A DNA stretch of 64,000 nt from a virus: positions 1 through 64,000 of IMG/VR virus record IMGVR_UViG_3300032214_000867. One strand, 5' to 3'. Positions 18,826 through 45,203 of this stretch are shown here, in pieces. The first letter of the stretch is position 1, and every line of letters begins with the position of its first letter. Under the pieces are notes generated by a model. That model had not been told where the DNA came from. It made no database searches and worked only from the letters and a program-made list of their open reading frames with translations. The translations under genes were made by a program, and so were the position numbers.

Positions 18826-18848
18826 TATAACATAGATCTAAAGGTAAA

Positions 18849-18874
18849 GGGGGGTTGACAAACCCCCCTTTTTA
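18849..18874 (+). terminator. Intrinsic terminator
   Basis: GGGGGGTT-GACA-AACCCCCC stem-loop followed by TTTTTATT. Confidence 0.9.
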
Positions 18875-24535: not shown

Positions 24536-24545
24536 TAGTTTAATA

Positions 24546-24570
24546 GGGGGTTGACAAAACCCCCTTTTTG
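24546..24570 (+). terminator. Intrinsic terminator after the porin gene
   Basis: GGGGGTT-GACAA-AACCCCC stem-loop followed by TTTTTG. Confidence 0.9.
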
Positions 24571-27375: not shown

Positions 27376-27400
27376 TTGTCCAGTTTTTAAATTGGACCAC

Positions 27401-27429
27401 TTGACTAAAGGCAATTTAACTCTTATAAT
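27401..27429 (+). promoter_or_regulatory. Sigma-70 promoter
   Basis: TTGACT (27401), 17-base spacer, TATAAT (27424), 24 bases before the ATG at 27453. Confidence 0.8.
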
Positions 27430-27452
27430 ACTAGAGCACACAATTCAAAACA

Positions 27453-27668
27453 ATGTCTCTGATTCAAAAATTCAAGAAAGATGTTAGCACTCTTCGCCTT
27501 GCTGCTAATGGTGAAATCTACCTTGACGTAAAAAGTCCTAAACTTTATAAAAAAGTTCGGCGTTATTATGAAAACGAAGGTGTAGTATTTTCTGGAGATC
27601 CTTTGGATGATTATGAAATGCTTATGGAGTATCTCTATCAAGATTTAGAAACAATTGAAGTTGCTTGA
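27453..27668 (+). CDS. Small conserved cyanophage protein
   Basis: 71 residues (MSLIQKFKKDVSTLRLAANGEIYLDVKSPKLYKKVRRYYENEGVVF...). Short alpha/beta protein of unknown function with its own promoter. Its transcript would run into the structured RNA and terminator that precede the glycan cluster. Confidence 0.7.
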   Translation: MSLIQKFKKDVSTLRLAANGEIYLDVKSPKLYKKVRRYYENEGVVFSGDPLDDYEMLMEYLYQDLETIEVA

Positions 27669-27673
27669 TAAAA

Positions 27674-27778
27674 TAGACACGGAGAGTCTATAAAAGAACT
27701 GGTGGAGTCAATCCCAATATGCCCGTGATGGAGACACGTTAAAAACCCTGGTGCGGATGGGATAACTCCCGCTCAGTT
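27674..27778 (+). ncRNA. Candidate structured RNA ahead of the glycan cluster
   Basis: A gene-free 105-base stretch with nested helices: hairpin TAGAC/GTCTA (27674-27690); then AACTG/CAGTT (27697/27774), GGAGT/ACTCC (27704/27765), ATCCCA/TGGGAT (27711/27758), and an internal CGTG/CACG hairpin (27724-27738). CACGG in the first hairpin can also pair with CCGTG at 27723, a possible pseudoknot. A terminator-promoter element follows. The wcaG RNA motif is a known cyanophage family upstream of GDP-sugar genes; identity not tested. Confidence 0.6.
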
Positions 27779-27812
27779 TTACATCTGAATAAAATGTAAA
27801 TAATTGCATGAA

Positions 27813-27839
27813 GGCGGGTTGTTTAAACCTGTCTTTTTT
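27813..27839 (+). terminator. Intrinsic terminator before gmd
   Basis: GGCGGGTT/AACCTGTC stem (with G-T pairs), 5-base loop, then TTTTTT. Confidence 0.75.
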
Positions 27840-27847
27840 GCTATAAT
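27819..27847 (+). promoter_or_regulatory. Sigma-70 promoter for the glycan cluster
   Basis: TTGTTT (27819), 17-base spacer containing the terminator 3' arm and T-run, TATAAT (27842). The ATG of gmd follows 23 bases on. Confidence 0.75.
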
Positions 27848-27869
27848 AGAATAATTCATATTATATTTT

Positions 27870-28871
27870 ATGAAAGTTGCATTAATAACAGGTATAACAG
27901 GTCAAGATGGATCATATCTTGCTGAACTTCTTTTAGAAAAAGAATATGAAGTTCATGGTATTGTTCGTAGATCTTCTTTAATTAATACTGATCGTATTGA
28001 CCATATTTACGATCAAATTAAACTTCATTATGGAGATCTTACTGATTCTACAAACTTGGTAAAAGTTATTCAGCAGGTTCAACCTGATGAGATTTATAAT
28101 CTAGGTGCTCAAAGTCATGTAAAAGTATCGTTTGAGATGCCTGAATATACAGGTCAAACTGATGGATTAGGAACTCTTCGCATTCTTGAGGCAGTTCGTC
28201 TTTTGGGAATGGAAAAGAAAACTAGAATTTATCAAGCATCAACTTCAGAAATGTTTGGCGAAGTTCAGGAAATTCCTCAAAAAGAAACCACACCTTTTTA
28301 CCCTCGTTCACCTTATGGAGTTGCAAAAGTTTATGGATACTGGATCGTTAAAAACTATAGAGAGTCATATGGACTACATGCAAATTCTGGAATTCTTTTC
28401 AATCACGAATCCCCTAGAAGAGGAGAAACTTTTGTCACAAGAAAAATCACTCGCGGACTATCACGCATTTCAACTGGGCAACAAGATATACTATATCTCG
28501 GCAACCTGAACGCAAAACGTGACTGGGGACATGCTAAAGACTTTGTAGAAGCAATGTGGTTGATGTTGCAGCAAGATGAACCAGATGATTATGTAATTGC
28601 CACAGGGGAGCAGTATTCAGTTCGTGAGTTTGTTGAGGCAGCAGCACCTTATTTTGGTATGAGTATTGCCTGGGAAGGTGAAGGATTAAATGAGGTTGGT
28701 ATTGATAAACTTACTAAAAGAGAGGTTATAAAAGTTAGTCCTAAATATTTCCGACCTGCTGAAGTAGAGACCTTATTAGGTGATGCCACGAAGGCAAAGA
28801 AAAAATTAGGTTGGGAACCTAAAATTTCATTTGAACAATTAGTTGAGGATATGTGCATTTATGGACAGTAA
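27870..28871 (+). CDS. gmd: GDP-mannose 4,6-dehydratase
   Basis: 333 residues, near full family length. Converts GDP-D-mannose to GDP-4-keto-6-deoxymannose, the branch point for GDP-fucose, GDP-colitose and others. NADP-binding [16 protein letters not shown] at the N-terminus, GIVRRSS, the SEMFGEV strand, and the catalytic YGVAK (YxxxK). [16 protein letters not shown] is the signature that separates Gmd from other SDR epimerases. First gene of the glycan cluster; overlaps the next gene by 11 bases. Confidence 0.97.
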
Positions 28872-29796
28872 TTCTAGAGTATTAGTTGCTGGTGCTAACG
28901 GGATGGTTGGTTCGGCAATTGTGAGAAATCTTGAAAGTAAAGGATATACGAATATTATTAAAGGTACTCGTGATAATGTTGACTTTACAAATCAAGAAGA
29001 AACTGAAAAATATTTTTCTTATGAAAACCCAGAATATGTTTTTCTTTCTGCTGCTAAAGTTGGAGGAATTGTTGCAAATAAAACATATCCAGCACAATTC
29101 ATTTATGATAATTTGATGATACAATCTAATGTCATCAATACTTCTTATAATTTTGGTGTTAAAAAATTAGTTTTTCTTGGATCTTCTTGCATTTATCCAA
29201 AACATTCTAATATTCCTATAACCGAAGATCAACTTTTAACTGGACCATTAGAAAAATCTAATGATGCTTATGCTATTGCTAAAATAGCAGGAATTAGAAT
29301 GTGCGAGGCATATCGCCAACAGCATGGTTTTAATGCTATTTCCTTAATGCCTACTAATCTTTACGGTCCTAATGATAATTTTGACTTTGAAACCTCGCAT
29401 GTTTTTCCTGCAATGATTGCAAAATTTCATGATGCGGTTACAAATCACAGTGAGCACTGGGAAGTCAAACTGTGGGGAGATGGTTCTGCGATGAGAGAGT
29501 TTTTACACGTCGATGATTTGGCAGAAGCATGTTATATTTGTATGCAAAAGTATGAAGATCAAAATCATATTAATATTGGCACTGGTGAAGACGTAACTAT
29601 TAAAGAATTATCTAAAATGATTGCAGAAGTAATTGGTTATAAACGTGATATTAATTGGGATACTGCAAAACCAAATGGTACTCCACGTAAAGTTCTAAAT
29701 GTGGATAAAATTAAATCACTTGGATGGGAACCAAAGATTAGTCTTTTCGAAGGGATCAAAAAAACATATGAATGGTATAAAGAAAATGCAATTTAA
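28861..29796 (+). CDS. wcaG: GDP-L-fucose synthase-like epimerase/reductase
   Basis: 311 residues. Rossmann start [26 protein letters not shown]-like [29 protein letters not shown] and catalytic [13 protein letters not shown] are all WcaG/Fcl signatures. The usual reaction is 3,5-epimerisation and 4-reduction of GDP-4-keto-6-deoxymannose to GDP-L-fucose. ColC of colitose synthesis is a close relative, and the adjacent ColD-like gene makes that an alternative. Overlaps gmd and the next gene. Confidence 0.93.
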
Positions 29797-30940
29797 ATGG
29801 CCGTTAATGAAGAATAATATCACTTTTAGTGATAAATTTAGTCTTGCTAAATTTGTTTTAACTTCTGATCGTTTTACTAACGGTAAAATGGTTAAAAAGT
29901 TTGAAAATGAGTGGAGTAAATGGTTAGGATCAAAATACTCACTCTATGTTTCTTCTGGAAGCACTGCAAATTATTTACTTCTTTCTGCAGTTAAAGAACT
30001 TTATAATTTAAAAGATGGTGATAAAGTTTTAGTTCCATCTTGTACTTGGGTAACTAATGTTGGACCAGTTATTCAATTAGGATTTACTCCTATCTTTTGT
30101 GATATTAATACGAATAATTTTAGTTTTTGTGAAGAAGACCTTGAATTTATTGCAGAAAAACATCCTGATATTAAATTGATATTTGTTACACATTTAATTG
30201 GATTCTCTGCTAACACTGAAAGATATCGCACTCTTTTTCCTAACGCCTTAATTTTAGATGATATATGCGAATCTCATGGATGCAAATCTCCAGATGGATC
30301 TAAAAGAGGATCTGATAGTTTAGGTGCTACATTTAGTTTTTATTTTGGGCATCATATGACAACAATTGAAGGTGGAATGGTGTCTACTAATAATTATGAA
30401 TTGTATGACTTAATGCGTATGAAAAGAAGTCATGGATTGGCAAGGGAATCTACTAGATATCAAGAATATGTGGATCAGTATCCAGATATATCAAATCAAT
30501 TTTTGTTCATAACAGATGGATATAACTTTAGAAATCACGAACTTTGTGCTGTAATTGGACTATCGCAACTGAAAAGACTTGATAAGTATATAGAAATCAG
30601 GAATAAAAATTATCTAAATTTTATAGAATTAGTAAAAAAATATCCAGATAAATTTATTGCACCAAAGTATTATCCAACTTGTAGTAATTTTTGCTTTCCT
30701 TTGTTATGTAAAACAAAAGAGATTGCAGATGATCTAAAACAAAAATTTACAGAGATTGGTATTGAACATAGACCAATTATTAGTGGTAATTTGCTAAAGC
30801 AACCTTTTTTAAAAGGTCATGGTATAACAACAAATAAAGATACATTAACTGTTGAATTTGTTCATAATAATGGAATATATCTTGGAAATAATCACTTTGT
30901 TAGTGAAAAAGAATTAAGGTTACTTGAAAGTGTTTTTTAA
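29786..30940 (+). CDS. DegT-family PLP enzyme, ColD-like 3-dehydratase
   Basis: 384 residues. DegT/DnrJ/StrS fold: YVSSGSTANYLLLSAV, VPSCTWVTNV, ILDDICESHG. At the cofactor position SFYFGHHMTTIEGG, the lysine that normally forms the Schiff base is histidine (H189). That substitution is known in GDP-4-keto-6-deoxy-D-mannose 3-dehydratase (ColD) and RfbH-type enzymes, which remove the C-3 hydroxyl. With gmd and wcaG this suggests a GDP-3,6-dideoxysugar such as colitose (inference). The ATG at 29786 overlaps wcaG. Confidence 0.85.
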   Translation: MQFKWPLMKNNITFSDKFSLAKFVLTSDRFTNGKMVKKFENEWSKWLGSKYSLYVSSGSTANYLLLSAVKELYNLKDGDKVLVPSCTWVTNVGPVIQLGFTPIFCDINTNNFSFCEEDLEFIAEKHPDIKLIFVTHLIGFSANTERYRTLFPNALILDDICESHGCKSPDGSKRGSDSLGATFSFYFGHHMTTIEGGMVSTNNYELYDLMRMKRSHGLARESTRYQEYVDQYPDISNQFLFITDGYNFRNHELCAVIGLSQLKRLDKYIEIRNKNYLNFIELVKKYPDKFIAPKYYPTCSNFCFPLLCKTKEIADDLKQKFTEIGIEHRPIISGNLLKQPFLKGHGITTNKDTLTVEFVHNNGIYLGNNHFVSEKELRLLESVF

Positions 30941-31729
30941 ATGGAATTTTCTATAAATGAATTTGGCAATAATGGGCATTTGGGAAATCAAATGTTTCAA
31001 TATGCATTTGTAAAAGCAATTGCAAAAAAATATAATGCAACTTTCTACATACCTCCAAAAGAAGTATTTGGTAAATTTTATTATCAAAGACTTTTTAGTA
31101 ATGTAGATGAATGCTTTGATATTAAATGTAATAGAGAAATGAAACGGTATCCGAGCATTCATGAAAAATATTTTCATTATGATCAAGATTTAATTAATAA
31201 TATTGAAGGAGATCATAATTTTGTAGGGTTTTTTCAATCCGAAAAATACTTTAAAGATATAGAGGAAGAGTTGCGTTCTGTTGATTTTGTTTTTAAAAAA
31301 GATATACAAGAAGAATGCAAAGAAATAGTTGAAGAATATAAAGGGTCAATAGCATTACATATTCGACGAAATGATTTTGTAACAAATCCTAATCATCCTG
31401 TACAAAGTAATCAATATTATATTGATGCTCTTAATCAATTTCCTCAAGATTTATCTGTTCTTGTTTTTTCTGATGATATTGCATGGTGTAAAAAACAAGA
31501 AATGTTCTCGGACGATAGGTTCTTAATTTCTGAAACTGAAAATGCTTATTTTGATTTGTATATTATGAGTCAATGTGCTTATCATATTATTTGTAATAGT
31601 ACTTTCAGTTGGTGGGGAGCATGGTTAGCAGATAGTAAAAATGTGATTGCCCCTAAAAATTGGTTTTCTGGTGATTGTATTAATCATGATACTAAAGATC
31701 TTTATTTGCCTCATTGGAAGTTACTATGA
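30941..31729 (+). CDS. Glycosyltransferase family 11 (alpha-1,2-fucosyltransferase-like)
   Basis: 262 residues. GT11 motifs: GHLGNQMFQYAFVKAIA at the N-terminus, ALHIRRNDFV (HxRRxD, GDP-sugar contact) at about residue 140, and CNSTFSWWGAWLA near the C-terminus. Would transfer a GDP-linked deoxysugar, probably the product of the upstream genes. Overlaps its paralogue by 4 bases. Confidence 0.92.
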   Translation: MEFSINEFGNNGHLGNQMFQYAFVKAIAKKYNATFYIPPKEVFGKFYYQRLFSNVDECFDIKCNREMKRYPSIHEKYFHYDQDLINNIEGDHNFVGFFQSEKYFKDIEEELRSVDFVFKKDIQEECKEIVEEYKGSIALHIRRNDFVTNPNHPVQSNQYYIDALNQFPQDLSVLVFSDDIAWCKKQEMFSDDRFLISETENAYFDLYIMSQCAYHIICNSTFSWWGAWLADSKNVIAPKNWFSGDCINHDTKDLYLPHWKLL

Positions 31730-32496
31730 ACCTTTATGTTTATTTGATGGGTGGATTGGGAAATCAAATGTTTCAATATGCTGCTGGGATATCTGCTTTA
31801 ACGGAGTATCCCGAATTTACCAATCTTAAGATAGACGCTAGTTTTTATAACAATCAACAAAGAAAAGTAATTGTTGATGGTATGACTGGTAGAGGATATG
31901 ATTTAGATTTGTTTAATATAAAATATAATCAAGTTGAGGAAACACCAGATGGGGCAGTAATGCTCCAAGGTTGGTTTCAAAATATAAAGGAATTTGATAA
32001 CGTCATTGATGATGTGAAGGAACAGTTTACTTTTAAAAATACTTTTCCAGAAAATATACAAACACTATCCGAAAAAATTAAAGATACTGAAGATAGTGTT
32101 TGTATTCATGTTAGAAGGTCTGATTATGTAAATAATCCAACTGCAAATGCACATCATGGTGTTTTAGAACTTGAGTATTATGAAACTGCAAAAAAACTTA
32201 TTGAGGATAGATACAAAAATCCAGTTTATTATGTTTTTTCTGATGATATAGAATGGTGCAAAAATAACTTAACATCAGATTGTGAAATCAATTTTATTGG
32301 TAATGATTATTCTGGGGATCGAGATAGTGGTCACTTACATTTAATGCAGATGTGTAAAAATCATATTATTGCCAATAGTTCTTTTAGTTGGTGGGGTGCA
32401 TTTTTGTCAAAATCTAGATATACAATAGCACCCAAAAAATGGAGACGAGATGGTAATGGTTGTGATATAATATTAGATAACTGGGTAAAATTATGA
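31726..32496 (+). CDS. Glycosyltransferase family 11 (alpha-1,2-fucosyltransferase-like)
   Basis: 256 residues, paralogue of the gene before it. Motifs MGGLGNQMFQYAAGISAL, CIHVRRSDYVNNP, NSSFSWWGAFLS. The ATG at 31726 overlaps the upstream TGA (ATGA). Two GT11 enzymes in tandem suggest two different fucose- or colitose-type linkages. Confidence 0.93.
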   Translation: MNLYVYLMGGLGNQMFQYAAGISALTEYPEFTNLKIDASFYNNQQRKVIVDGMTGRGYDLDLFNIKYNQVEETPDGAVMLQGWFQNIKEFDNVIDDVKEQFTFKNTFPENIQTLSEKIKDTEDSVCIHVRRSDYVNNPTANAHHGVLELEYYETAKKLIEDRYKNPVYYVFSDDIEWCKNNLTSDCEINFIGNDYSGDRDSGHLHLMQMCKNHIIANSSFSWWGAFLSKSRYTIAPKKWRRDGNGCDIILDNWVKL

Positions 32497-33221
32497 AAAA
32501 AGATTTAATAAAAAAAATAATAGAAATTGCGTATATTAAAAGAGAGGGACATATTGCCAGTTCTCTTTCCATACTAGATGTATTGATGGTTTTATATTCT
32601 GATTTTATTAATGAAAAAAATAAATTTGTATTATCAAAGGGACATGCATCTCTTGGTTTGTATGTTGTATTAAATTATTTTAACTTGTTAGAAGAAGATA
32701 TTGATACATTTTGCGATTTTAATTCTTCTCTTGGTGGGCATCCTTCAAATAAAGTAAAGAATGTCGAAAGTTCTACTGGTTCTTTGGGGCATGGATTTCC
32801 ATTTGCACTTGGCATGGCAATGGCAAAAAAAATTAAAAATGAAGATGGAAAAATATTTACTATAATCGGTGATGGAGAATCTAATGAAGGAACTATTTGG
32901 GAAACTGCTTTATTAGCATCTCATCACAAATTGGATAATTTTTGTTGCATTCTTGATCATAATCATTCAACTAATAGAGCTTTGGGTATTGGAAATATGC
33001 TTGAAAAATTTAAATCTTTTGGGTGGGATGTTTCCGAAGTTGATGGGCATAATCAAATAGAATTAAAAGAAGTTTTATCTAAAAACTTTGATCGTCCTCA
33101 TTTTGTTCTGGCAAATACTGTCAAAGGAAAGGGATGTAAAATTATGGAAAGTAATCCAGAATGGCATCATAAATTTCCAACAGAGGAAGAATATTCTAAA
33201 ATATTACATGAAATATTTTAG
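32493..33221 (+). CDS. Transketolase-like subunit, N-terminal (ThDP-binding) half
   Basis: 242 residues. The ThDP/Mg motif GDGESNEGTIWETALLASH sits at about 126-144, with FVLSKGHAS and GSLGHGFPFALGMAMA earlier; these are transketolase N-terminal signatures. Standard transketolase is one chain of about 650 residues; here the two halves are separate genes, separated by a methyltransferase gene. Split transketolases occur in sugar-modification clusters. ATGA overlap with GT11. Confidence 0.88.
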   Translation: MKKDLIKKIIEIAYIKREGHIASSLSILDVLMVLYSDFINEKNKFVLSKGHASLGLYVVLNYFNLLEEDIDTFCDFNSSLGGHPSNKVKNVESSTGSLGHGFPFALGMAMAKKIKNEDGKIFTIIGDGESNEGTIWETALLASHHKLDNFCCILDHNHSTNRALGIGNMLEKFKSFGWDVSEVDGHNQIELKEVLSKNFDRPHFVLANTVKGKGCKIMESNPEWHHKFPTEEEYSKILHEIF

Positions 33222-33249
33222 AATATATAATAAGAACTATTTTTTTTTT

Positions 33250-33999
33250 ATGAAATATAATCACGAGACTCCAATTTGTAATTCTAATATGTCCAAAATT
33301 TTGGATTATTGTAAAGATGTTAAATGCGTTTTTGAAATAGGTGCATATGATGGAGTTGATATAGAAGAAATAAAAGGATTATTTGGAGAGGAATGTCACA
33401 TACATGCATTTGAACCAGATTTTGAATCTTTTCCAATATTAGAAGAATACTATAAATCTGATACTGTTTTTTGTAATAATATAGCATTATCTAATTTTAT
33501 TGGGGAAACTAAATTTGTAAAATGTTACGATCCTGATCTTGTAGACCCAGATACTAATGAATTACGTAGAAATAGACAACATCCGGCAGATTTGTGGTAT
33601 AAAACAATTCAATCTTTACGTTATAATAATGTAAAATTATTGAATGAAAGCGGTCTTAGACCAGGAACTAAAATAATTCATAAAGAATATCCAGTTTCGG
33701 TAACTACAATTGATGAATATTGTAAGGTTAATAATTTAAAACCTGATGTTTTGCTTTTAGATACGCAAGGAAGTGAGTATGAGATCCTTGAGGGTGCTAA
33801 ATCTATACTGAATAGTGTTCAAGCAATATCTACCGAATGGTCGGCAATAGAATTGTATGAAGACCAAAAATTACTTTCTGATATTGAAAATATTTTAGGA
33901 GAATATGGATTTAGATTAGTTGAAAAGGTAGATTTGTGGTGTTTGCCTGGCAATGTATATACTCCAATTCATGGAGATGCTATTTTTGCAAAAGTTTAA
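33250..33999 (+). CDS. FkbM-family methyltransferase
   Basis: 249 residues. VFEIGAYDGVDIEEIKGLF is SAM motif I, CHIHAFEPDFESFPIL motif II, and PDVLLLDTQGSEYEILEGAKSIL the FkbM signature. Likely O-methylates a sugar. The ATG at 33250 is chosen; upstream in-frame codons overlap the transketolase gene. It separates the two transketolase genes, perhaps a later insertion. Confidence 0.88.
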   Translation: MKYNHETPICNSNMSKILDYCKDVKCVFEIGAYDGVDIEEIKGLFGEECHIHAFEPDFESFPILEEYYKSDTVFCNNIALSNFIGETKFVKCYDPDLVDPDTNELRRNRQHPADLWYKTIQSLRYNNVKLLNESGLRPGTKIIHKEYPVSVTTIDEYCKVNNLKPDVLLLDTQGSEYEILEGAKSILNSVQAISTEWSAIELYEDQKLLSDIENILGEYGFRLVEKVDLWCLPGNVYTPIHGDAIFAKV

Positions 34000-34036
34000 T
34001 TAATTTAAAAAAATTACAAAAATTTGAATTGAAAAA

Positions 34037-34909
34037 ATGAGAAAACAATTTGTAAAAACTTTAAAAAATATTCTTTATAATGATGAAAGAACAGTTCTTT
34101 TATTGGGTGATATTGGTGTATATGGATTTAGGGATGAATTGAGAGATATACCTAATAGAGCATATAATATTGGAATTTTAGAACAAAGTACAGTAAGTAT
34201 GGCATCTGGAATGTCTCATTCTGGATTGATTCCTTTTATTCATACTATTGCTCCATTTATGGTTGAGAGAGCATTTGAACAAATAAAGGATGATTTTGGT
34301 TATCAAAATTTAAATGGAAACTTCGTAAGTATTGGTAATTCTTATGATTTTTCTGCTTTAGGATGCACTCACCATTGTCCAGGGGATGTTCAAATTTTAA
34401 TGAGCATTCCTAATATTAAAATTTTTACACCAGGAACAAGTTCAGAATTGAATTATTTAATGAATAAAAATTATGATAAAGGTGTGAATTATTATAGACT
34501 GAGTGAATATGAAAATGATGTTTCTTATGAAACTGATAAAATTTCTGTAATTAAAACAGGATCTAAAGCTACTGTTTTATGTTTTGGTAATAAATTAAAT
34601 GAAACTATAGAAGCATGTAAGGATATTGATGTAACTTTATTATATTCTAATACTGTAACTCCATTTGATGAGCAGACTTTAAAAAACAATTTCAATAAAA
34701 ATATTATAGTTGTTCAACCTTTCTATGTTGGATCTGTTGATAGTTTAATTTCTAAAGTTTTTCAGGATCAGTATTATAGGATATATAATATAGGAATTCC
34801 CAAACAATTCCTAACCAAATATGGATCTAAAAATGAACAAGACATTTATCTTGGATTAGATACTGAAGGAATTTTTAATCAAATAAAAAATATTTTGGGG
34901 AACATTTAA
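34037..34909 (+). CDS. Transketolase-like subunit, C-terminal (pyrimidine-binding) half
   Basis: 290 residues. VLLLGDIGVYGF and AYNIGILEQSTVSMASGMS, whose Glu (E49) should contact the ThDP aminopyrimidine, then PFIHTIAPFMVERAFEQIK and a C-terminal transketolase-type domain (ATVLCFGNKLNETIEAC). It pairs with the gene at 32493. The substrate is not readable from sequence. Confidence 0.88.
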   Translation: MRKQFVKTLKNILYNDERTVLLLGDIGVYGFRDELRDIPNRAYNIGILEQSTVSMASGMSHSGLIPFIHTIAPFMVERAFEQIKDDFGYQNLNGNFVSIGNSYDFSALGCTHHCPGDVQILMSIPNIKIFTPGTSSELNYLMNKNYDKGVNYYRLSEYENDVSYETDKISVIKTGSKATVLCFGNKLNETIEACKDIDVTLLYSNTVTPFDEQTLKNNFNKNIIVVQPFYVGSVDSLISKVFQDQYYRIYNIGIPKQFLTKYGSKNEQDIYLGLDTEGIFNQIKNILGNI

Positions 34910-34911
34910 GT

Positions 34912-35952
34912 ATGATAGATTTAATTTTTGATAATGCACAAAAAAATGTTGATGTTATAGATTTTTCTAAATTAGATAATAAGAGAATTTTATTGACTGG
35001 ATGTAGTGGTTTAATAGGAATTCATTTACTTTCTACATTAAAATTGTTGAAAAGTAAGTATAATATTGATATATATTGCTTGGTTCATGATACTCCAGAA
35101 CCTCCATTTGACGTATTATTTAAAGATTGTTTTGTGGTAAAGGGTGATCTTGTTAAATCTGATAGTGTAGATTATCTTTTAAATATATTTTCAGAAAATC
35201 AAGTTGGTGTTGATTATATTATACATGCTGCAGGATATGCCCAACCAAAGAAGTTTACTGGGGATAAATTAAACACTATTCTTTTGAATACCAAAACAAC
35301 TTCAGATTTGTTCAGGTTATTAAATCCTGGTGGGTCTTTTTTATTTTTGAGTTCAAGCGAACTTTACAGTGGTTTAGATATTGAAAATATTAGTGAAGAT
35401 TTAATAGGAAATACAACTCCAGATCATCCTAGGTCTTGCTATATTGATTCCAAAAGGTGTGGTGAATCAATAGTTCACTCTTTTAAGGAAAAGGGATTCG
35501 ATACAAAAATTGCACGAGTAAGTCTTACTTATGGTCCAGGAACTAAAAAAAATGATTGTAGAGTTATGTCTGATTTTGTAACAAAAGCTCTACAAAATGG
35601 TATAATAAGTTTAATAGATGATGGTCAATCTATTAGAACCTATTGTTATATTTCAGATACCACAGAAATGTTATGGAATATTTTATTGCATGGTAAGCAA
35701 ATTGTATATAATGTTTCCGGAACTTCTAAAGTTTCTATTTTAGAAATGGCAAATAAGATTGGAAAAATATTAGATGCCAAAGTATCTTGCCCCGAAGACA
35801 ATAAAAATTCTCTTCAAGGTAATCCTAAAGTAGTTAATTTAAGTTTAGAAAAATATATAATTGAATTTAATAAAACAGAATTTATTCCTATTGATTATGG
35901 AATAGAAAAAACAGTTGAATGGATTAAATCACTTTATTCAGAGGAATTTTAA
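34912..35952 (+). CDS. NAD(P)-dependent sugar epimerase/dehydratase (extended SDR)
   Basis: 346 residues. RILLTGCSGLIGIHLLSTL is the nucleotide-binding motif; FLSSSELYSG and the catalytic CYIDSKRCGE (YxxxK) follow, then ARVSLTYGPGT and DDGQSIRTYCYISDT. Only 2 bases separate it from the transketolase gene, so it may reduce or epimerise that enzyme's product (inference). Confidence 0.88.
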   Translation: MIDLIFDNAQKNVDVIDFSKLDNKRILLTGCSGLIGIHLLSTLKLLKSKYNIDIYCLVHDTPEPPFDVLFKDCFVVKGDLVKSDSVDYLLNIFSENQVGVDYIIHAAGYAQPKKFTGDKLNTILLNTKTTSDLFRLLNPGGSFLFLSSSELYSGLDIENISEDLIGNTTPDHPRSCYIDSKRCGESIVHSFKEKGFDTKIARVSLTYGPGTKKNDCRVMSDFVTKALQNGIISLIDDGQSIRTYCYISDTTEMLWNILLHGKQIVYNVSGTSKVSILEMANKIGKILDAKVSCPEDNKNSLQGNPKVVNLSLEKYIIEFNKTEFIPIDYGIEKTVEWIKSLYSEEF

Positions 35953-36843
35953 ATGTTACTTTCTATATTGGTGCCTGGAAAAAATGATAATTTTAGAAAA
36001 AGTAATTCTAAAGTTTTAAAATTTAATTTGGAGCAAACAATACATAACATCAAAGATTTGGGTGTTGATGACGTAGAGTTAGTTTTGTGTGACTGGGGAT
36101 CCCCGAAAGAAAAAAGGATAGTAGATGATATTGTTAAAACAAAACATATTAATTTTAAATGTGTATATGTGTCTCCGGAAATAGCACAAAAATATAATGG
36201 GGAATGGAATTATTCTATTGTTCACCCAATCAATACTGCATTCAGACACTCAACAGGTAAGTATGTTATTTTTTGGGATTCTGATTGTTTTCATACGTTG
36301 GAAGATTTCAAAAAACTTTATGAGTTTGTTCAAAATATGGACAAAACTAATGATCTAAAGTTTTACTGGGGATCTAGGCATCATCTTCCGTATAGTAATT
36401 ACTCAAACTTTGATAGACCAAAAGAACTTGAAAATTATTTAATTAATAATTTAAGTAATTTAAAGTTTAATATTGAAGGAACTGAAATGTATAATACTGG
36501 AAATATTCCAGGAATGGAAATGGGTGGATTTTACGGAAATGGAATTTCTATGTTAATGAATAGAATGTTATGGGAAAGTAGTACTGGGTGGTTTGAAGAA
36601 CTTCCATATTGGGGATTTCAAGATGTTGAATTCCACAATAGACTGTTGCAAAGGTATAAGCATGGAGGAGATCTTGCCAAGTTTGGAATTAATTTTTATC
36701 ATTTATTACCTAATGATAATCATATGGATTTTAATAACGATAAGCATCCAAATATGAAGATGAATAAACATCATGGGTCTGAAAAATTTGAAGCCAATCC
36801 TCCTAGTTGGGGTCTTTCTAATGAAATGTTAGAGGTTATTTGA
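35953..36843 (+). CDS. Glycosyltransferase, family 2-like
   Basis: 296 residues. LSILVPGKNDNFRKSN start, VELVLCDWGSPKEK, a DSD metal-binding motif in YVIFWDSDCFHT and a downstream PYWGFQDVEFHNRLLQRY (the ED-like acceptor region of GT-A enzymes). Donor and acceptor unknown. Starts directly at the preceding stop. Confidence 0.82.
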   Translation: MLLSILVPGKNDNFRKSNSKVLKFNLEQTIHNIKDLGVDDVELVLCDWGSPKEKRIVDDIVKTKHINFKCVYVSPEIAQKYNGEWNYSIVHPINTAFRHSTGKYVIFWDSDCFHTLEDFKKLYEFVQNMDKTNDLKFYWGSRHHLPYSNYSNFDRPKELENYLINNLSNLKFNIEGTEMYNTGNIPGMEMGGFYGNGISMLMNRMLWESSTGWFEELPYWGFQDVEFHNRLLQRYKHGGDLAKFGINFYHLLPNDNHMDFNNDKHPNMKMNKHHGSEKFEANPPSWGLSNEMLEVI

Positions 36844-36847
36844 TATA

Positions 36848-37732
36848 ATGATCCGCATAGTAGATGTTCCAGATTCATTTCTTCCAAAAATGCCAATAGA
36901 ATATCCTCCACATCAAGGATCTAATCCTATGATTGAAGAAAGAGCATATTCTTTTTTTGCAACTAAACTGGAAATTCAATCCGAATACATTTATATTCCA
37001 ATTCACTGGACTTCTTGGCACATTAATCCTGGTGGTGAGTTTGGAAAAAATACACAACCTTTGATTAATTTTTGTCAAGAATTAATTCAAAAGCATCCTA
37101 ATGAAAAATTTTTCACTATTGTTCAATATGACGGTGGAACTTTAATTCCTATTGATAATTGTAAGATATTTGCCTCTTCTGGAAATTTTCTTTCTCCCCT
37201 AGGAAAAAATTCAGTTTATGAACCTATTCCATTATTATGCAATCCTCATGATGGAATTCCAAAAGAAGTTAGAGAATATAAGGTTGGATACGTTGGAAAG
37301 GACACTCATCCGATTAGATTTAAAATGAATCAGATTTTATCCAATTTTTCCGGATATAATATTATTGCAAATAATGAATATAATAAAACTGAGGTTTTTC
37401 GTGATGTTTTATATAATTCAGTATTTGCACTTGCTCCAAGAGGGTTTGGACCTGCTTCATTTAGAATGTATGAAGCAATTCAAATGCAGTGTATTCCCAT
37501 TTATATTAGTGATGAGTTTTGGTTGCCTTTTGTTCAAGATATTGAATGGAGTAAAATGAGTTTATTGATTAAAGAAGAGGAAATTGAAACTATTCCCGAG
37601 AAAGTAGATACTTTATTAGAGAGTGGAGAATATCAAAATATGATTGATTATGGACAAGAAATTTATGAAAAATATTTGTCTTTTGATGGGTGTTTAAATA
37701 CTATAGCGCAAAAAATATCAAATTATGATTGA
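36848..37732 (+). CDS. Exostosin-like glycosyltransferase (GT47 type)
   Basis: 294 residues. The C-terminal VFALAPRGFGPASFRMYEAIQMQCIPIYISDEFWLPF is the exostosin/GT47 signature (RG.GP...R.YEA...G.iPVi..d.w.LPF). The N-terminal half has the GT-B Rossmann-like strands. Donor unknown. Overlaps the next gene by 8 bases. Confidence 0.85.
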   Translation: MIRIVDVPDSFLPKMPIEYPPHQGSNPMIEERAYSFFATKLEIQSEYIYIPIHWTSWHINPGGEFGKNTQPLINFCQELIQKHPNEKFFTIVQYDGGTLIPIDNCKIFASSGNFLSPLGKNSVYEPIPLLCNPHDGIPKEVREYKVGYVGKDTHPIRFKMNQILSNFSGYNIIANNEYNKTEVFRDVLYNSVFALAPRGFGPASFRMYEAIQMQCIPIYISDEFWLPFVQDIEWSKMSLLIKEEEIETIPEKVDTLLESGEYQNMIDYGQEIYEKYLSFDGCLNTIAQKISNYD

Positions 37733-38471
37733 TAAAATTTCTTTAGCCATTCCATTTTATAATACCTCTAAATATTTTTTAGAATGTATTAAATACTCTA
37801 TTGATGATGATTTTGTATCTGAAATAGTAGTAAATGATGATCAGTCTAATGAAGAAGAATGGAATAATCTTAACACTATTGTTTCTGAATTAAATAATCC
37901 TAAAATAAAATTATACAGAAATCCTATAAATCTTGGCGGATTTAAAAATAAGTATAAAACTGTCAAGAAAACAACTTCAAATTGGGTTTATCTTCTAGAC
38001 AGTGATAATTATTTGGATATTACTACTTTAAATTTAATTAAAGATATTGAAAATCCAGATGAGAATATTTGTTATTGTCCACAAATAATGGTAATGTTCA
38101 ATGATGATGGTGAAATTCTACGAGAAGTTAATTTTGATTATCCTTATGATAATATAGGTTTTTCCGAGTCAAAAAAATCTATGGGAGATGTAAATTTTCC
38201 TATGTTTTTAAACACTGGTAATTATATTTTTGATAGGGAAAATTATCTTTCTAGAATGTATGACCTTTATACTAGACAAGAAGATCCTTTATCTTGTGAT
38301 TGTATCGCTTTTCAATATAATTGGATGTTGGTAGGTGGATACACAAAAATAGTTTCTAATTTAAAATACTATCATAGATTAAGAAATAATAGTTATTGGA
38401 TGACTTGTGGACATAATTCTGATATTAAAGCTTCTTATTATATAAATTTATTTAATTCTGTTAAAAATTAA
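37725..38471 (+). CDS. Glycosyltransferase family 2
   Basis: 248 residues. ISLAIPFYNTSKYFLECI start, EIVVNDDQSNEEEWN, NLGGFKNKYKTVKKTTSNWVYLLDSDNYL with the DSD motif: classical GT2 fold A. Donor and acceptor unknown. Confidence 0.88.
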   Translation: MIDKISLAIPFYNTSKYFLECIKYSIDDDFVSEIVVNDDQSNEEEWNNLNTIVSELNNPKIKLYRNPINLGGFKNKYKTVKKTTSNWVYLLDSDNYLDITTLNLIKDIENPDENICYCPQIMVMFNDDGEILREVNFDYPYDNIGFSESKKSMGDVNFPMFLNTGNYIFDRENYLSRMYDLYTRQEDPLSCDCIAFQYNWMLVGGYTKIVSNLKYYHRLRNNSYWMTCGHNSDIKASYYINLFNSVKN

Positions 38472-38481
38472 TTACGAAATT

Positions 38482-39270
38482 ATGGAAAATATAAAAAACA
38501 CTATTTTAAATTTTTTGGATTATAATTGGAATGGATCTTGGAAAGAACTAGAAAAATTTGCTGCATTAAAACAAGGTAAGGGGTGGGGATCTGGAACGAT
38601 TGTTGAAGAGGTTGATAATTGTATTTCTTTGTTAAATGATGATCCAAAAATTGTATTGGATATTGGAAGCAATATTGGTCTTTATACACAAGAACTACTT
38701 AAAAGATATCCTGATGCAATTTATTTTTTATTTGAACCATCTGATTATAATATAAACATTCTATCTAATAAATTTTATTCTTGTGATAATGTTTATTGTA
38801 GTTCATACGCATTATCTGATAAAACTACAACAGATGCTTTGTATTCTGACAAACCTGGATCTGGTTTAGCTTCTTTGACAAAGAGAAGATTGAATCATTT
38901 TAATATTGATATGGATTTTGTTCAAAATGTCAAAACAATACGATTTGATGAATTTTTAAAATTGGATGATATTCCAAAAATTCCAGAAATTATTGATTAT
39001 GTGAAAATGGATGTTGAAGGACACGAACTTTCTGTACTAAATGGATTTGGAAATCTAATTGAAAAAATTAAATTAATTCAATTTGAATTTGGCGGTTGTA
39101 ATATAGATACTAAAACTTATTTTCAAGATTTTTGGTATTTCTTTAAAAGTTTTGATTTTTCAATGTATATTATAACTTTTGATGGTCCTCAAAAAATAAA
39201 TCAATATGAAGAATCTTTTGAATTCTTTTCTACTACAAATTATATTGCTTTGAATAATAAATTAAAATAA
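38482..39270 (+). CDS. FkbM-family methyltransferase
   Basis: 262 residues. IVLDIGSNIGLYTQELLKRYPDAIYFLFEPSDYNINIL (SAM motifs I and II), IIDYVKMDVEGHELSVLNGF (FkbM hallmark). Second FkbM enzyme of the cluster, suggesting more than one methylated sugar. Shares its last base with the next start (TAATG). Confidence 0.9.
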   Translation: MENIKNTILNFLDYNWNGSWKELEKFAALKQGKGWGSGTIVEEVDNCISLLNDDPKIVLDIGSNIGLYTQELLKRYPDAIYFLFEPSDYNINILSNKFYSCDNVYCSSYALSDKTTTDALYSDKPGSGLASLTKRRLNHFNIDMDFVQNVKTIRFDEFLKLDDIPKIPEIIDYVKMDVEGHELSVLNGFGNLIEKIKLIQFEFGGCNIDTKTYFQDFWYFFKSFDFSMYIITFDGPQKINQYEESFEFFSTTNYIALNNKLK

Positions 39271-39959
39271 TGAAAATCTGTATTTTAACAATCGCTACAA
39301 ATAAGTATCTTCAATTTGTTGAAGAACTTTACGACTCTATTGAGAAGAATTTTCTTAATGGGCATGAGATTAGTTGTCTTTTGTTTACTGACCATGAAGT
39401 AGAAACATCAGACAACGTAAGAGTTCACTATATTGATCATGAACCTTGGCCTATGCCAACTTTAAAGCGTTATAATTATTTTGTTAAGGAGAAAGAATTC
39501 ATTCTTCAGCACGATTATTGTTTCTATTTTGATGCCGATATGAGAGTTGATAATTTGGTTGGTGATGAAGTTTTAAGTGATCTGGTCGGAACTCAACACC
39601 CGTATCAATCTTTTCATTCTATTGAGAAAATGTCTTATGATAGAAATCCAAAGTCTTTAGCATATGTTCCTTTGGGTGAAGGTAAAAATTATTATGCTGG
39701 TGGATTTAATGGTGGATCTACCAAATCTTTTATTGAAATGTCTGAAGTGATTGCTGATAGAGTTAATAAAGATTTGGAAAAAGATGTAATCGCTTTATGG
39801 CATGATGAAAGTCATATGAACCGATATATGATCGATAATCCTCCTACATTATCATTAACACCATCTTATTGTTTTGCTGAAGAATTTTATGGGACTGATT
39901 ATCCACATGAACCCAAGATTATTGCTTTGAGGAGAAATAAAGATGAACTTAGATCTTAG
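39270..39959 (+). CDS. Glycosyltransferase family 6 (ABO blood-group-like)
   Basis: 229 residues. YYAGGFNGGSTKSFIEMSEV and IALWHDESHMNRYM followed by PTLSLTPSYCFAEEF are GT6 hallmarks, shared with the human A/B transferases (YYxGgFxGGs; WHDESHLNkYl). DAD in YCFYFDADMRV gives a DxD metal site. The family adds alpha-1,3-Gal or GalNAc, usually next to a fucose, which fits the two GT11 genes upstream. Start overlaps the preceding stop. Confidence 0.9.
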   Translation: MKICILTIATNKYLQFVEELYDSIEKNFLNGHEISCLLFTDHEVETSDNVRVHYIDHEPWPMPTLKRYNYFVKEKEFILQHDYCFYFDADMRVDNLVGDEVLSDLVGTQHPYQSFHSIEKMSYDRNPKSLAYVPLGEGKNYYAGGFNGGSTKSFIEMSEVIADRVNKDLEKDVIALWHDESHMNRYMIDNPPTLSLTPSYCFAEEFYGTDYPHEPKIIALRRNKDELRS

Positions 39960-40596
39960 GGAAATACCTTTCTATTACATTAATCTTGAAAATGCAGTAG
40001 AAAGAAAAGAAAAAACAGAAAATCATTTAAAAGCACTTGGTATCAAAAGTATTAATAGGATTAATGCTGTTCCTCATAGTAATGGATTTGCTGGATGTGC
40101 CAGAACCGTAAGTGATTTTTTACATCAGATTACAGAGGGACCTTTTGTTTTAATTGAAGATGATATTGATGTTAAAAGGTGGGATCCGATTATAGAAGTT
40201 CCAGATGATGCCGATGCTCTTTATCTTGGTATTTCTGGATGGGGAAGAATGAATGGACACTCTGGTCCATTTGTTCAGTGGGAGCAAGTTGATGATAATC
40301 TTCTTCGCGTTTATAATATGTTAAGTGGACATGCAATTGTATATCTTTCTGGAGAATGGGTTGAGATGGCAAGGCGTTGCTGTCATCATGCTGGATATGT
40401 GATTGAAAGTTATTATGATGTTCAGATTGCGGAAGTTCAAAGATTTTTTAACATTTATGCTTTAGATGATCCATACTTTTATCAGACCAGTTCTGATGGA
40501 AATCAAAAAGTAACATATGAAAAACTTTCTACTCAACAATCATTAGAGTGTTTATCATACATTCCACAACTGTTTTTACCAGAAAGAATTAACTGA
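39943..40596 (+). CDS. Glycosyltransferase family 25-like
   Basis: 217 residues. PFYYINLENAVERKEKTENHLKALGI (GT25 start), CARTVSDFL and FVLIEDDIDVKRWD (EDD motif). GT25 enzymes add galactose or related sugars in LPS. Overlaps both neighbours. Confidence 0.8.
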   Translation: MNLDLREIPFYYINLENAVERKEKTENHLKALGIKSINRINAVPHSNGFAGCARTVSDFLHQITEGPFVLIEDDIDVKRWDPIIEVPDDADALYLGISGWGRMNGHSGPFVQWEQVDDNLLRVYNMLSGHAIVYLSGEWVEMARRCCHHAGYVIESYYDVQIAEVQRFFNIYALDDPYFYQTSSDGNQKVTYEKLSTQQSLECLSYIPQLFLPERIN

Positions 40597-41543
40597 TGTA
40601 TATTGCTTCTTGCCCTCTTCGAGTTTCTTTATTTGGAGGATCTACAGATAACCCGTACTTTGTTGAAAAGTATGGGTTTGGTTCCGTAATTAGTTTTAGT
40701 TGCAATCTTAAAACTTATATCAGTCTCCATGAGGATAAGTTGGGATACAATATGCAAGGAAGAAAGTATATTGTAAACTATTCCAAAAGAGAAGAAACTG
40801 AATATATTGGTGATATTAAGAATGAGTTGGTTCGGATTGTTCTAAACTACTTTGGATGTTTTCCTTTAACTGTGAGTATGACTAGTGATGCATATTCGCA
40901 GGGTAGTGGTCTTGCTTCATCATCATCTTATATTATTGCTCTGATTAAGTGTATTTCTATGTTTAAAGACTTGCATTTAACTGATATTGAAATCTGTGAA
41001 CTTGCTCTTCAATTGGAGCAAGAGATGAATCCTTACTGTGGATATCAAGATCCTTATGGATGTGGTATTGGTGGATTTAAAAAGATTGATTTTGAAAAAG
41101 GTGGCATCATTAAATATAATTTCTTATCTACAGATTTGTTCAAGAACTATGATGCCCATTTGGTTTTTACTGGTGTAACAAGAAATTCCAAAAATGTTCT
41201 TCAAGATGTAACTGCAAATATTGATAAGTCTTTGCCTTTGTTAAAAACTGTAGATGATGCTTATGGTGCTTTAAGATCAAAGGATTATATTAAGTTTTTG
41301 GATTTGTTAAATTACGGATGGGAACAGAAAAAGGCAACAAGTTCATTGATTACGGAAAATGAGGAAATAAAGAATATTGATAAAGTTCTTACCGATAGTA
41401 AAGAAGTGATTGCTCATAAACTTTGTGGTGCTGGAAATGGTGGTTTCTTTCTTGTATTCTCGGAACCAGATACCTTGAAAATTCCGTATAAATCAATTAA
41501 AATAGATGTAGAACCAAACGGAGTAGTAGGACATAAATTATGA
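40596..41543 (+). CDS. hddA: GHMP-family sugar kinase (D,D-heptose-7-phosphate kinase-like)
   Basis: 315 residues. CPLRVSLFGGSTDNPYF (GHMP motif 1), SQGSGLASSSSYIIAL (ATP loop), and KLCGAGNGGFFLVFS (motif 3). With gmhA next to it, the natural reading is the kinase that phosphorylates D-glycero-D-manno-heptose 7-phosphate at C-1 (HddA); a fucose-type kinase is the alternative. Overlaps both neighbours by a few bases. Confidence 0.83.
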   Translation: MYIASCPLRVSLFGGSTDNPYFVEKYGFGSVISFSCNLKTYISLHEDKLGYNMQGRKYIVNYSKREETEYIGDIKNELVRIVLNYFGCFPLTVSMTSDAYSQGSGLASSSSYIIALIKCISMFKDLHLTDIEICELALQLEQEMNPYCGYQDPYGCGIGGFKKIDFEKGGIIKYNFLSTDLFKNYDAHLVFTGVTRNSKNVLQDVTANIDKSLPLLKTVDDAYGALRSKDYIKFLDLLNYGWEQKKATSSLITENEEIKNIDKVLTDSKEVIAHKLCGAGNGGFFLVFSEPDTLKIPYKSIKIDVEPNGVVGHKL

Positions 41544-42043
41544 ACCCTTTTACGGAATATATTGATGCTCTTCAATCTGCCCATATGGGTAATGAGTTTG
41601 AAAAATTTCAAGAAGCATTTAGGAAATATCCTAGAATTATTGTTCTAGGAAATGGTGGCAGCAATTCAGTTGCCTCTCATATCTCTCAAGATTATATGAA
41701 GTTTCATGGTAAGAAAGTTTCTATTCTTTCCGATCCTTCTATGCTAACGATGTTAACAAATGACTTTGGATATGAGAATGCATATCAAAAGTTTTTAGAA
41801 TATTATGTTGAAGATAATACTCTTGTGGTAATTATGAGCTCTGGTGGTGAGTCAAAAAATATGCTAAACTGTCTAGAGTGGTGTGAAATTAACAAAGTGA
41901 ATTATGGGGTATTAACTGGATTTAGTCCAGATAATAGTATTCGTACCAGAGCAACGAACGCTCTATGGAACTACTACATAAGTAGTGATGATTATGGTGT
42001 TGTTGAGTGTGTTCATCAAATTTTTCTTCATGGAGTTGTATGA
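41540..42043 (+). CDS. gmhA: Phosphoheptose isomerase-like SIS protein
   Basis: 167 residues. One SIS domain: RIIVLGNGGSNSVASHISQDYMK, VSILSDPSMLTMLTNDFGYENAY, VVIMSSGGESKNML, and C-terminal VVECVHQIFLH. GmhA converts sedoheptulose 7-phosphate to D-glycero-D-manno-heptose 7-phosphate. The substrate could be drawn from the host pentose phosphate pathway, which this phage also targets with talC and gnd. Confidence 0.9.
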   Translation: MNPFTEYIDALQSAHMGNEFEKFQEAFRKYPRIIVLGNGGSNSVASHISQDYMKFHGKKVSILSDPSMLTMLTNDFGYENAYQKFLEYYVEDNTLVVIMSSGGESKNMLNCLEWCEINKVNYGVLTGFSPDNSIRTRATNALWNYYISSDDYGVVECVHQIFLHGVV

Positions 42044-42756
42044 GATATTGCTTTGATATTGACGGAACTCTTTGTCATACTCCAAATAATGAAAAGGGTA
42101 AACCAGATTATTTGAATGCCAGACCGTATGGTTTTATGGTTGAGCAAGTTAATCGTTTGTATGATGAAGGAAACTATATTATTTTGCAAACCGCAAGAGG
42201 TAAAGGATCTGGTATAGATCACACAGAATTAACCAAAACTCAGTTAGCAGAATGGGGATATAAGTATCATGAACTATTCCCCATGTTCTGTAAACCAACT
42301 GCAGATATTTTTATTGATGATAAGGCAGTTAATGCCGTAGACTGGGCGGCAAGTCAACCAAAAGTTAAAGGTATTGTTGCTGGAGCATTTGATCTTATTC
42401 ATCCTGGATATATTAGGATGTTTGAAGAGTGTAGGGAATACTGCAATCACCTTACTGTTGCTCTTCATGAAGATCCTTCTTGGGCACGACCAAACAAACT
42501 TCCTCCTGTTCAATCTTTAGAAGACAGAAAGGAGATTTTGAGATCTATTAAATATATTGACGATATTGTAGTTTATCAAGCAGAAGATACATTTTTATCT
42601 TATCTCAAAGACTATGATATTAGATTTTTAGGTGATGACTATAGGGATGAATCTTATACTGGCAAAGACGTTGATATAAAAATTGTTTTTGTTGATAGAA
42701 GTCATGATTATTCGACTACTGAATTAAAAAGAAAAATTGTTAAATCTTGGAGGTAA
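42040..42756 (+). CDS. HAD-type phosphatase fused to nucleotidyltransferase
   Basis: 238 residues, two domains. Residues 1-105: HAD-like, CFDIDGTLCHTP (DxDGT), YIILQTARG, IFIDDKAVNAVDWA. Residues 110-238: cytidylyltransferase-like, GIVAGAFDLIHPGYIRMFEEC, where the usual HxGH reads HPGY, and DRSHDYSTTELKRKI. In the heptose pathway a phosphatase and a nucleotidyltransferase act in sequence after the kinase, and both domains are here in one chain. The nucleotide (A, C or G) is not readable. ATGA overlap with gmhA. Confidence 0.8.
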   Translation: MRYCFDIDGTLCHTPNNEKGKPDYLNARPYGFMVEQVNRLYDEGNYIILQTARGKGSGIDHTELTKTQLAEWGYKYHELFPMFCKPTADIFIDDKAVNAVDWAASQPKVKGIVAGAFDLIHPGYIRMFEECREYCNHLTVALHEDPSWARPNKLPPVQSLEDRKEILRSIKYIDDIVVYQAEDTFLSYLKDYDIRFLGDDYRDESYTGKDVDIKIVFVDRSHDYSTTELKRKIVKSWR

Positions 42757-42760
42757 AAAA

Positions 42761-43657
42761 ATGAAAGCATTAGTGACAGGTGGTGCAGGTTTTATTGGAT
42801 CAAATCTTGTCGATAAACTGGTTGAACTTGGACATGAAGTTGTAGTTATTGATAATGAAAGTGCCGAGTCTAATGAGCAGTTCTATTGGAACGATAAAGC
42901 ACAAAACTATAAGTATGATATTCGTGATTACGCGAATACCCGACCTCTTTATGATGGAGTAGATTTTGTATTTCATCTTGCAGCAGAGTCTAGAATTCAA
43001 CCCGCAATTGAAAATCCGATTGAAGCAGTGAGTCTTAATTCTGTTGGAACCTGTACGGTTCTTCAGTGTTCTCGTGAGGCGGGCGTAAAGCGTGTGATGT
43101 ATTCTTCTACTTCTTCTGGATATGGAATGAATCAATCTCCAAATGTAGAAACACAACCAGATGATTGTTTAAATCCATACTCGGTTTCTAAAGTCAATGG
43201 TGAAAAACTTTGTAAAATGTATACAAGTTTGTATGGTCTCCCTACGATTTCTTTCAGGTATTTTAATGTTTATGGTGAGCGCCAACCTCTTCGCGGTCAA
43301 TATGCTCCTGTAATTGGTATCTTCCTTCGCCAACGTGCTGCTGGAGAACCTCTGACGATTGTTGCCGATGGAAACCAGCGCAGGGATTTTACCTATGTTG
43401 GTGATGTTGTAAACGCAAATATCCTTGCTGCAACTACAGAAGTTGACTCTGATGCATTTGGACAACTTTATAATGTTGGTAATGGTGTCAATTATTCAAT
43501 CAATCAAATTGCCAGAATGATTGATCACCCAACAGTTAATATTCCCCCACGTCCAGGTGAAGCACGAGTAAGTCTTGCTAATAATCAAAAACTTCGTAAG
43601 ACCTTTGGTTGGGAACCTACCGTTAAGGTTGAAGACTGGATTAAGGAGCAACTTTGA
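42761..43657 (+). CDS. NAD-dependent nucleotide-sugar epimerase
   Basis: 298 residues. ALVTGGAGFIGSNLVDKLVELGHEVVVIDN, FHLAAESRIQPAIENP, catalytic PYSVSKVNGEKLC (YxxxK), FRYFNVYGERQPL. Strong GGAGG before the ATG at 42761. Generic UDP-glucose 4-epimerase-like; in context it may act on the NDP-heptose (epimerase role of HldD) or supply another donor. More GC-rich and better codon-adapted than its neighbours. Confidence 0.88.
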   Translation: MKALVTGGAGFIGSNLVDKLVELGHEVVVIDNESAESNEQFYWNDKAQNYKYDIRDYANTRPLYDGVDFVFHLAAESRIQPAIENPIEAVSLNSVGTCTVLQCSREAGVKRVMYSSTSSGYGMNQSPNVETQPDDCLNPYSVSKVNGEKLCKMYTSLYGLPTISFRYFNVYGERQPLRGQYAPVIGIFLRQRAAGEPLTIVADGNQRRDFTYVGDVVNANILAATTEVDSDAFGQLYNVGNGVNYSINQIARMIDHPTVNIPPRPGEARVSLANNQKLRKTFGWEPTVKVEDWIKEQL

Positions 43658-43658
43658 T

Positions 43659-44489
43659 ATGACTGTTCAAATCTTTACAACAGTAGTTAATCGTCCTGAT
43701 TTTGTAGAAATACAAGATAAATTATTCAAAAAATTTTTGAAAGAAGAGTATCAATTTCATGTTGTTGATGACTCTATGGATGAAAATATTTCTCAAGAGT
43801 TTAAAACTATTTGTGAAAAGTACTCAATTCATTATTATCGTAAACCGCAGAGTGAAAGTAAAAAGTTTGATAATCCTTTAGCAGGTGCTCGCCATGCCAC
43901 TGAAACTATTCAGTGGACTTATGATAATCTTATTAAGCAAAATCATTCAAAAGATTTGATTTTATTTTGTGACTCTGACATGTTCTTGTTGGATGATTTT
44001 TCTCTTGAAGAATATATGAATGGTGAAATTATTGCTGGTCATCTTCAAGTTAGGGGACATGTAAGATATATTTGGAATGGACTTATGTTCTTTAACATGG
44101 AAAAAATTTCAGAGATTGATACAGATCTCAATTTCTCCGATGGTGATATTGAGGGTCAACTTACTGATATTGGTGGACACTTGTATCCTTATTTTAAAAA
44201 GTATAATATTAATTTTAAAAGGATTAATGATAGTGGAACTGACGGTGAAGACTATCCAGAGTATCCATCCAAATATAATGGAGTTGAAATTCCAGTATTA
44301 TTAACTTCTGATATGTGGTGTAAACCTGAAGATGGGTACAATTTTGAATTGCACTTGAACGGAACTTTTCTTCATTATCGTGCTGGAACTAACTGGCACA
44401 CTCAAACTAGTTGGAAAACTAAAGAAGATCCTTTAAAACTAAAGGCACAAATTTTTAATCAAATTATAGGAGATTTTATCCATGAGTAA
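43659..44489 (+). CDS. Putative glycosyltransferase, GT-A-like
   Basis: 276 residues. VQIFTTVVNRPDFVEIQ start, YQFHVVDDSMDENIS, and DLILFCDSDMFLLDDF with a DSD motif. A C-terminal FLHYRAGTNWHTQTSW region is seen. Family not identified with confidence. The ATG at 43659 is chosen right after the epimerase stop; upstream codons in this frame overlap the epimerase. Overlaps the next gene by 8 bases. Confidence 0.75.
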   Translation: MTVQIFTTVVNRPDFVEIQDKLFKKFLKEEYQFHVVDDSMDENISQEFKTICEKYSIHYYRKPQSESKKFDNPLAGARHATETIQWTYDNLIKQNHSKDLILFCDSDMFLLDDFSLEEYMNGEIIAGHLQVRGHVRYIWNGLMFFNMEKISEIDTDLNFSDGDIEGQLTDIGGHLYPYFKKYNINFKRINDSGTDGEDYPEYPSKYNGVEIPVLLTSDMWCKPEDGYNFELHLNGTFLHYRAGTNWHTQTSWKTKEDPLKLKAQIFNQIIGDFIHE

Positions 44490-45171: not shown

Positions 45172-45203
45172 TTAAAACAAATTTTTACAATGATTGAAAA
45201 AAT

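Follow-up and report, generated by a model that had tools for sequence, protein, structure and literature searches.

What role does a structured RNA play at the border between a short viral gene and a long glycan operon? The window analysed here, a 64,000-nucleotide stretch of DNA from a cyanobacterial virus (positions 1 to 64,000 of IMG/VR record IMGVR_UViG_3300032214_000867), has such a border at 27669-27869, a gap between a 71-amino-acid open reading frame and gmd that contains no genes; an earlier note made from the letters alone had put about 105 gene-free bases here. The elements of this locus described between 27401 and 46770 all lie on the plus strand. The 71-amino-acid gene (27453-27668; phrog_552, function unassigned, PHROGs E 5e-26) adjoins the RNA and follows a predicted sigma-70 promoter, TTGACT-17-TATAAT (27401-27429), that matches 11 of 12 consensus positions; TTGACC and TATAAT stand at the equivalent position in L174, the closest relative among the matches listed. 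On the other side, gmd (GDP-mannose 4,6-dehydratase, 27870-28871; Pfam PF16363, E 2.8e-156) opens a glycan cluster of about 19 kb, a run of close-packed open reading frames at 27870-46770 beginning with gmd, an epimerase resembling GDP-fucose synthase, a DegT aminotransferase and two GT11 transferases (family searches covered the cluster genes up to 32496). Two transcription units are predicted from this layout. The first would run for about 400 nt from the promoter at 27401 through the small gene and the RNA to a terminator, and the second from a promoter embedded in that terminator through gmd and about 19 kb of genes to the next terminator-promoter composite at 46804. The RNA is thus predicted to form the 3' end of the short unit, with gmd promoted separately from within the terminator; given this separate predicted promoter, the gmd mRNA may lack the RNA altogether.

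In order to compare the RNA with its relatives, more than 300 loci were gathered by scanning viral contigs for patterns and phage records for similarity, and 136 wcaG cores, each less than 93% identical to the others, were kept among the matches listed. A scan of cell genomes gave 13 matches, 12 of which were GC-rich stretches with neither flanking hairpins nor wcaG features. The remaining one (L330) is a genuine wcaG RNA; its contig was binned as Euryarchaeota TMED129 but may be phage DNA placed in the wrong bin. A cellular origin was rejected on these counts, with 12 of the 13 matches put down to chance, and within the sequences searched the RNA is essentially viral.

The stretch folds better than shuffled versions of it, z being -4.1 when the terminator is included and -2.7 over 27674-27800, and to that extent the structured RNA of the earlier note stands, but the particular fold drawn there finds no support in the relatives. 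That fold had three nested helices closed by AACTG/CAGTT and a possible pseudoknot of CACGG at 27678 with CCGTG at 27723. The closing helix does occur in the minimum-energy fold, yet shows no covariation, with a paired fraction of 0.692 against 0.697 for shuffled partners over 78 loci, and in the unshuffled count half of the loci are satisfied by G-U pairs with conserved letters. Two of the six pairs of the middle helix (27711-27716/27757-27762) are broken in L174 and, by eye, uncompensated. The CAGTT strand overlaps the S1 strand of the covarying pseudoknot described below, and the bases of CACGG and CCGTG fall in two separate hairpin modules, the second of which changes independently in relatives as judged by eye. 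The nested helices and the CACGG/CCGTG pairing were accordingly set aside as conserved structure; the nested fold could be an alternative state of the window's own molecule. The alignment of homologues that the earlier note had called for did reveal covariation, in other places: what is conserved, as read from the relatives, is a chain built from small modules, namely hairpin modules A1 and A2, the wcaG core and an H-type pseudoknot.

Module A1 (27675-27704) has an AGAC/GTCT stem, the loop ACGGAGA, a tail and CUGGUG, and module A2 (27724-27753), detected by the same module finder and family table, has a CGTG/CACG stem, the loop AUGGAGA, a tail and CUGGUG. Between them lies the linker GAGUCAAUCCCAAUAUGCC (27705-27723), with similar linkers in relatives. 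Many loci have modules of this general form, in which a stem of 4-5 bp closes a 7-nt loop (N-Y-G-G-N-N-N) and is followed by an A-rich tail and CUGGU. As the search criteria specified stem pairing, GG and CUGGU but neither the Y of the loop nor the tail base three positions ahead of CUGG, these two positions could be compared, and they are C-G or U-A in 104/105 sequences taken as genuine, which are related and do not amount to a tally of independent events. Three other table entries that do not fit are chance matches with no likeness to the module. Between the two positions mutual information reaches 0.99 bits; the same loop base gives no more than 0.14 with any other tail position. The covarying pair is loop C with tail G in A1 and loop U with tail A in A2. 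A full loop-tail helix was considered and dropped, the support extending to this single pair. In four loci (L105, L187, L247, L272) a third kind of 5' module stands directly before the wcaG core, for example AACCC/GGGUU with GUAGG, or GCAGG/CCUGC, and resembles an H-type pseudoknot.

The structure after the core is, by its strong covariation, a predicted H-type pseudoknot (27773-27800), with S1 formed by UCAG/CUGA (27773-27776 with 27785-27788) and S2 by UUUACAU/AUGUAAA (27778-27784 with 27794-27800). In an alignment of 90 relatives that was built without structure information, and whose pairing count is therefore independent evidence, 93% of the cells of the pseudoknot and core helix are paired and 11 of the 14 pairs have changed on both sides, giving 206 double-change cells compared with 54 for shuffled and at most 34 for slid controls. 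Parsing all loci, a procedure that presupposes the pairing, yields more than 10 types of S1; the usual form has 4 pairs, with 3 nt in the first loop and 5 nt, rich in A, in the third. In the window none of the four S1 pairs is lost, and three differ from the consensus on both sides.

The earlier note had linked this RNA to the wcaG motif, and the link is right in kind. The wcaG core UGGUGCGGAUGGGAUAACUCCCGC (27749-27772), placed by the Rfam alignment and near-invariant in the 90 relatives, is present exactly as UGGUGCGGAUGGG followed by CUCCCGC; the 3' hairpin carries the pseudoknot of the relatives, with all four pairs of S1 and also the S2 stem; and the RNA precedes genes of the exopolysaccharide type, gmd and the glycan cluster. 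RNAs of this type are found ahead of sugar-cluster genes in many cyanophages. The covariance scan that the note had proposed did return wcaG (RF01761) at 27723-27813, with E 3e-4 in the 701 bases of 27400-28100 and 7.3e-6 in the 65-kb record, but at 32.5 bits, below the gathering score of 42; the same model gave no second match in the 65-kb record. The RNA is very probably a divergent wcaG-type variant, and by Rfam's criterion, the gathering score, it is not a wcaG member. The low score probably arises because module A (here A2) replaces the Rfam-type 5' hairpin, as it does in 15 of the 136 listed loci, and because the divergent, AT-rich 3' end has UAAUUGCAUG in place of the UGGCG that follows the 3' hairpin. 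Three loci (L058, L116, L121) have module A at this place and yet score above the Rfam cut-off. L174, which shares both module A and the AT-rich 3' end without UGGCG, had no wcaG match reported by the model even at E 0.01. Part of the RNA class, including the window's RNA and that of L174, is thus missed by the Rfam model.

Downstream of the RNA, the earlier note's terminator and the TATAAT -10 element before gmd are both present. The intrinsic terminator hairpin with its U tract (27810-27839) contains the start of the predicted promoter (27819-27847), whose -35 element TTGTTT (27819-27824) is separated by a 17-nt spacer from the -10 element TATAAT (27842-27847), preceded by TGC, such that the hairpin encloses the -35 and the -10 comes after the U tract. 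Among the 136 listed loci an equivalent terminator was found in 103, a promoter of the form TTGNNN plus a TATAAT-like hexamer in 70, and both in 67; a tRNA gene follows in 20, and in 14 there is no terminator and no tRNA. Pseudoknot and U tract are mostly 43-50 nt apart in the listed loci, and the terminator arms of the window and L174 differ, by eye, in a compensatory manner. The isolates DSL-LC03 and S-SKS1 are examples that carry the same cassette. Terminator hairpins with TTGACA and a -10-like hexamer also occur in the window apart from any wcaG RNA, at 18847-18873, 24545-24569 (with a poor -10) and 46804-46835, the last closing the glycan cluster.

Loci that precede tRNAs are a second context for the wcaG RNA chain; in L315, L316, L314, L313 and L121 the tRNA gene follows the chain, often past a GC hairpin that lacks a U tract. 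The S-CREM1 locus (L312) has manA and abiF RNAs among tRNAs (3568-3782, 3884-3920) a few hundred bases downstream of wcaG, and abiF lies near wcaG in L105 too. PhotoRC-II RNA, known from the psbA regions of cyanophages, occurs in the window at 55232-55328 (85.6 bits).

The genes on the two sides of the RNA behave differently. Upstream open reading frames from 134 listed loci form 25 clusters, of which the four largest have 38, 22, 14 and 10 members, the cluster of 10 being that of the window's 71-amino-acid gene. Downstream, 105 listed loci give 35 clusters, the largest with 37 members, which resemble the window's gmd group in sequence and were read on that ground as dehydratases and epimerases of nucleotide sugars, and the next with 12, nucleotidyltransferase-like. 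Whatever the upstream gene, the genes downstream are mostly sugar-nucleotide or glycosyl enzymes. After an RNA-bearing composite the next gene is of glycan type in 79 listed loci and of another type in 4, compared with 6 and 9 after composites without a wcaG core, a contrast that serves as a guide only, the reference set having been picked by eye from the same loci and several of its six coming from loci found with the module A pattern.

As far as comparison of sequences goes, the modular structure, the pseudoknot, the anatomy of the terminator-promoter and the association with glycan genes are established. Together they suggest that the divergent wcaG-type RNA, with its chained modules, ends a short transcript from the promoter at 27401, that the terminator also serves as the glycan operon's promoter, and that the RNA would act in cis while RNA polymerase sits at the terminator. 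It would thereby tune the amount of upstream transcription that enters the operon, and the embedded promoter would supply the operon's own start. A cis effect at the terminator is favoured because the glycan association spans unrelated upstream families and the distance between pseudoknot and U tract is narrow. Counting against it are gmd's own predicted promoter, a terminator arm that fits its own RNA no better than the RNAs of other loci, the 20 loci in which the RNA precedes tRNAs, and the missing UGGCG in the window. We consider it likely that the RNA and the composite together form a boundary device, and hold the chances of the whole two-unit model, with the RNA acting in cis at the terminator-promoter, to be evenly balanced; its specific proposal of an action on read-through into the operon, which the earlier note had also raised, is tentative.

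Nearly as likely as a cis effect, though still on the unlikely side, is that the chain serves as the stable 3' end of the upstream mRNA or is freed as a small RNA, where it would guard against exonucleases or work in trans, with the glycan operon merely the next unit. This would fit a unit of about 400 nt with its own promoter and terminator, the many loci in which a small gene's stop codon immediately precedes the RNA, and compact pseudoknots with A-rich loops, which suit a protective role. Counting against it is a downstream theme of glycan synthesis that persists across many upstream families.

A metabolite riboswitch, the proposal of 2010, for instance a nucleotide-sugar sensor controlling read-through or translation, would explain a core that is highly conserved and unpaired before sugar genes, and wcaG is listed as a candidate in PMC2864571. 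It is nonetheless improbable. A comparison over 102 loci revealed no conserved RNA-terminator pairing, the terminator arm fitting its own RNA no better than those of other loci (mean -8.40 kcal/mol for own pairs, -8.65 for shuffled), and no aptamer that would exclude the terminator through an antiterminator emerged from the same set. Six pairs of a candidate antiterminator, CCCGCU/GGCGGG, can be drawn by eye in the window; own pairs were not above shuffled in those 102 loci, and the candidate was rejected. The absence of a conserved antiterminator pairing leaves a classical riboswitch platform unsupported, and a plain riboswitch is further disfavoured because the operon promoter is separate, located after the RNA, and because a tRNA class exists, a context that, like the variable number of modules, poorly fits a single ligand-binding site.

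Work on the PeSL cassettes of T4 reportedly proposed a role in recombination and module exchange. That the RNA and terminator-promoter are mainly homology for such exchange, with no function at the RNA level, is highly improbable, as covariation implies selection for RNA structure, even if one cassette sits amid changing upstream and downstream genes, modules are swapped among relatives, and PeSL work exists (cited in PMC4503421); the variation in neighbouring genes is only suggestive of PeSL-like exchange.

Returning to a cis effect at the terminator-promoter, a broader and doubtful extension is that wcaG may be a component of a broader class of phage RNAs, in which chained, interchangeable pseudoknot and hairpin modules would act on RNA polymerase in cis and determine how much transcription passes a terminator-promoter, giving phage glycan operons an RNA-based antitermination system. 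In the literature searched, itself incomplete, no description was found of a chain of interchangeable modules or of its joining to such a composite, and nothing further on tandem pseudoknots in phages or on wcaG function. The 2010 description made wcaG a candidate riboswitch standing ahead of genes of the exopolysaccharide type or high-light genes (PMC2864571), and later annotations place it in cyanophages (PMC9602691, PMC9964418). It has been an unexplained candidate ever since, and viewing it as a modular chain before a terminator-promoter gives concrete functional tests.

Among known systems, EAR (epsC) RNA of Bacillus, which belongs to polysaccharide operons, and put RNA of phage HK022 are antitermination RNAs. 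Like the window's RNA they are structured and stand ahead of terminators, and the polysaccharide context of EAR may be likened to the glycan cluster; Rfam gave no match to EAR (RF01735) up to E 10 in 27400-28100. With wcaG (RF01761; Weinberg 2010, PMC2864571) the window shares the exact core, the order of 5' hairpin and 3' hairpin, and the site before exopolysaccharide-type genes in T4-like cyanophages. It differs in its sub-gathering score, in module A taking the place of the 5' hairpin, in the extra module upstream and in the AT-rich 3' end without UGGCG, and Rfam's nested structure line for the family omits the pseudoknot. A further likeness is to the PeSL cassettes of T4-like phages, reportedly the subject of Arbiol 2010 and Comeau 2014. 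These are composite promoter-terminators according to PMC4503421, which cites them, and, as titles and this citing paper present them, they too join a terminator hairpin to an early-type promoter between gene modules, as the window does at 27810-27847. Compared with that description, the window places its -35 element inside the hairpin and a structured RNA ahead of it.
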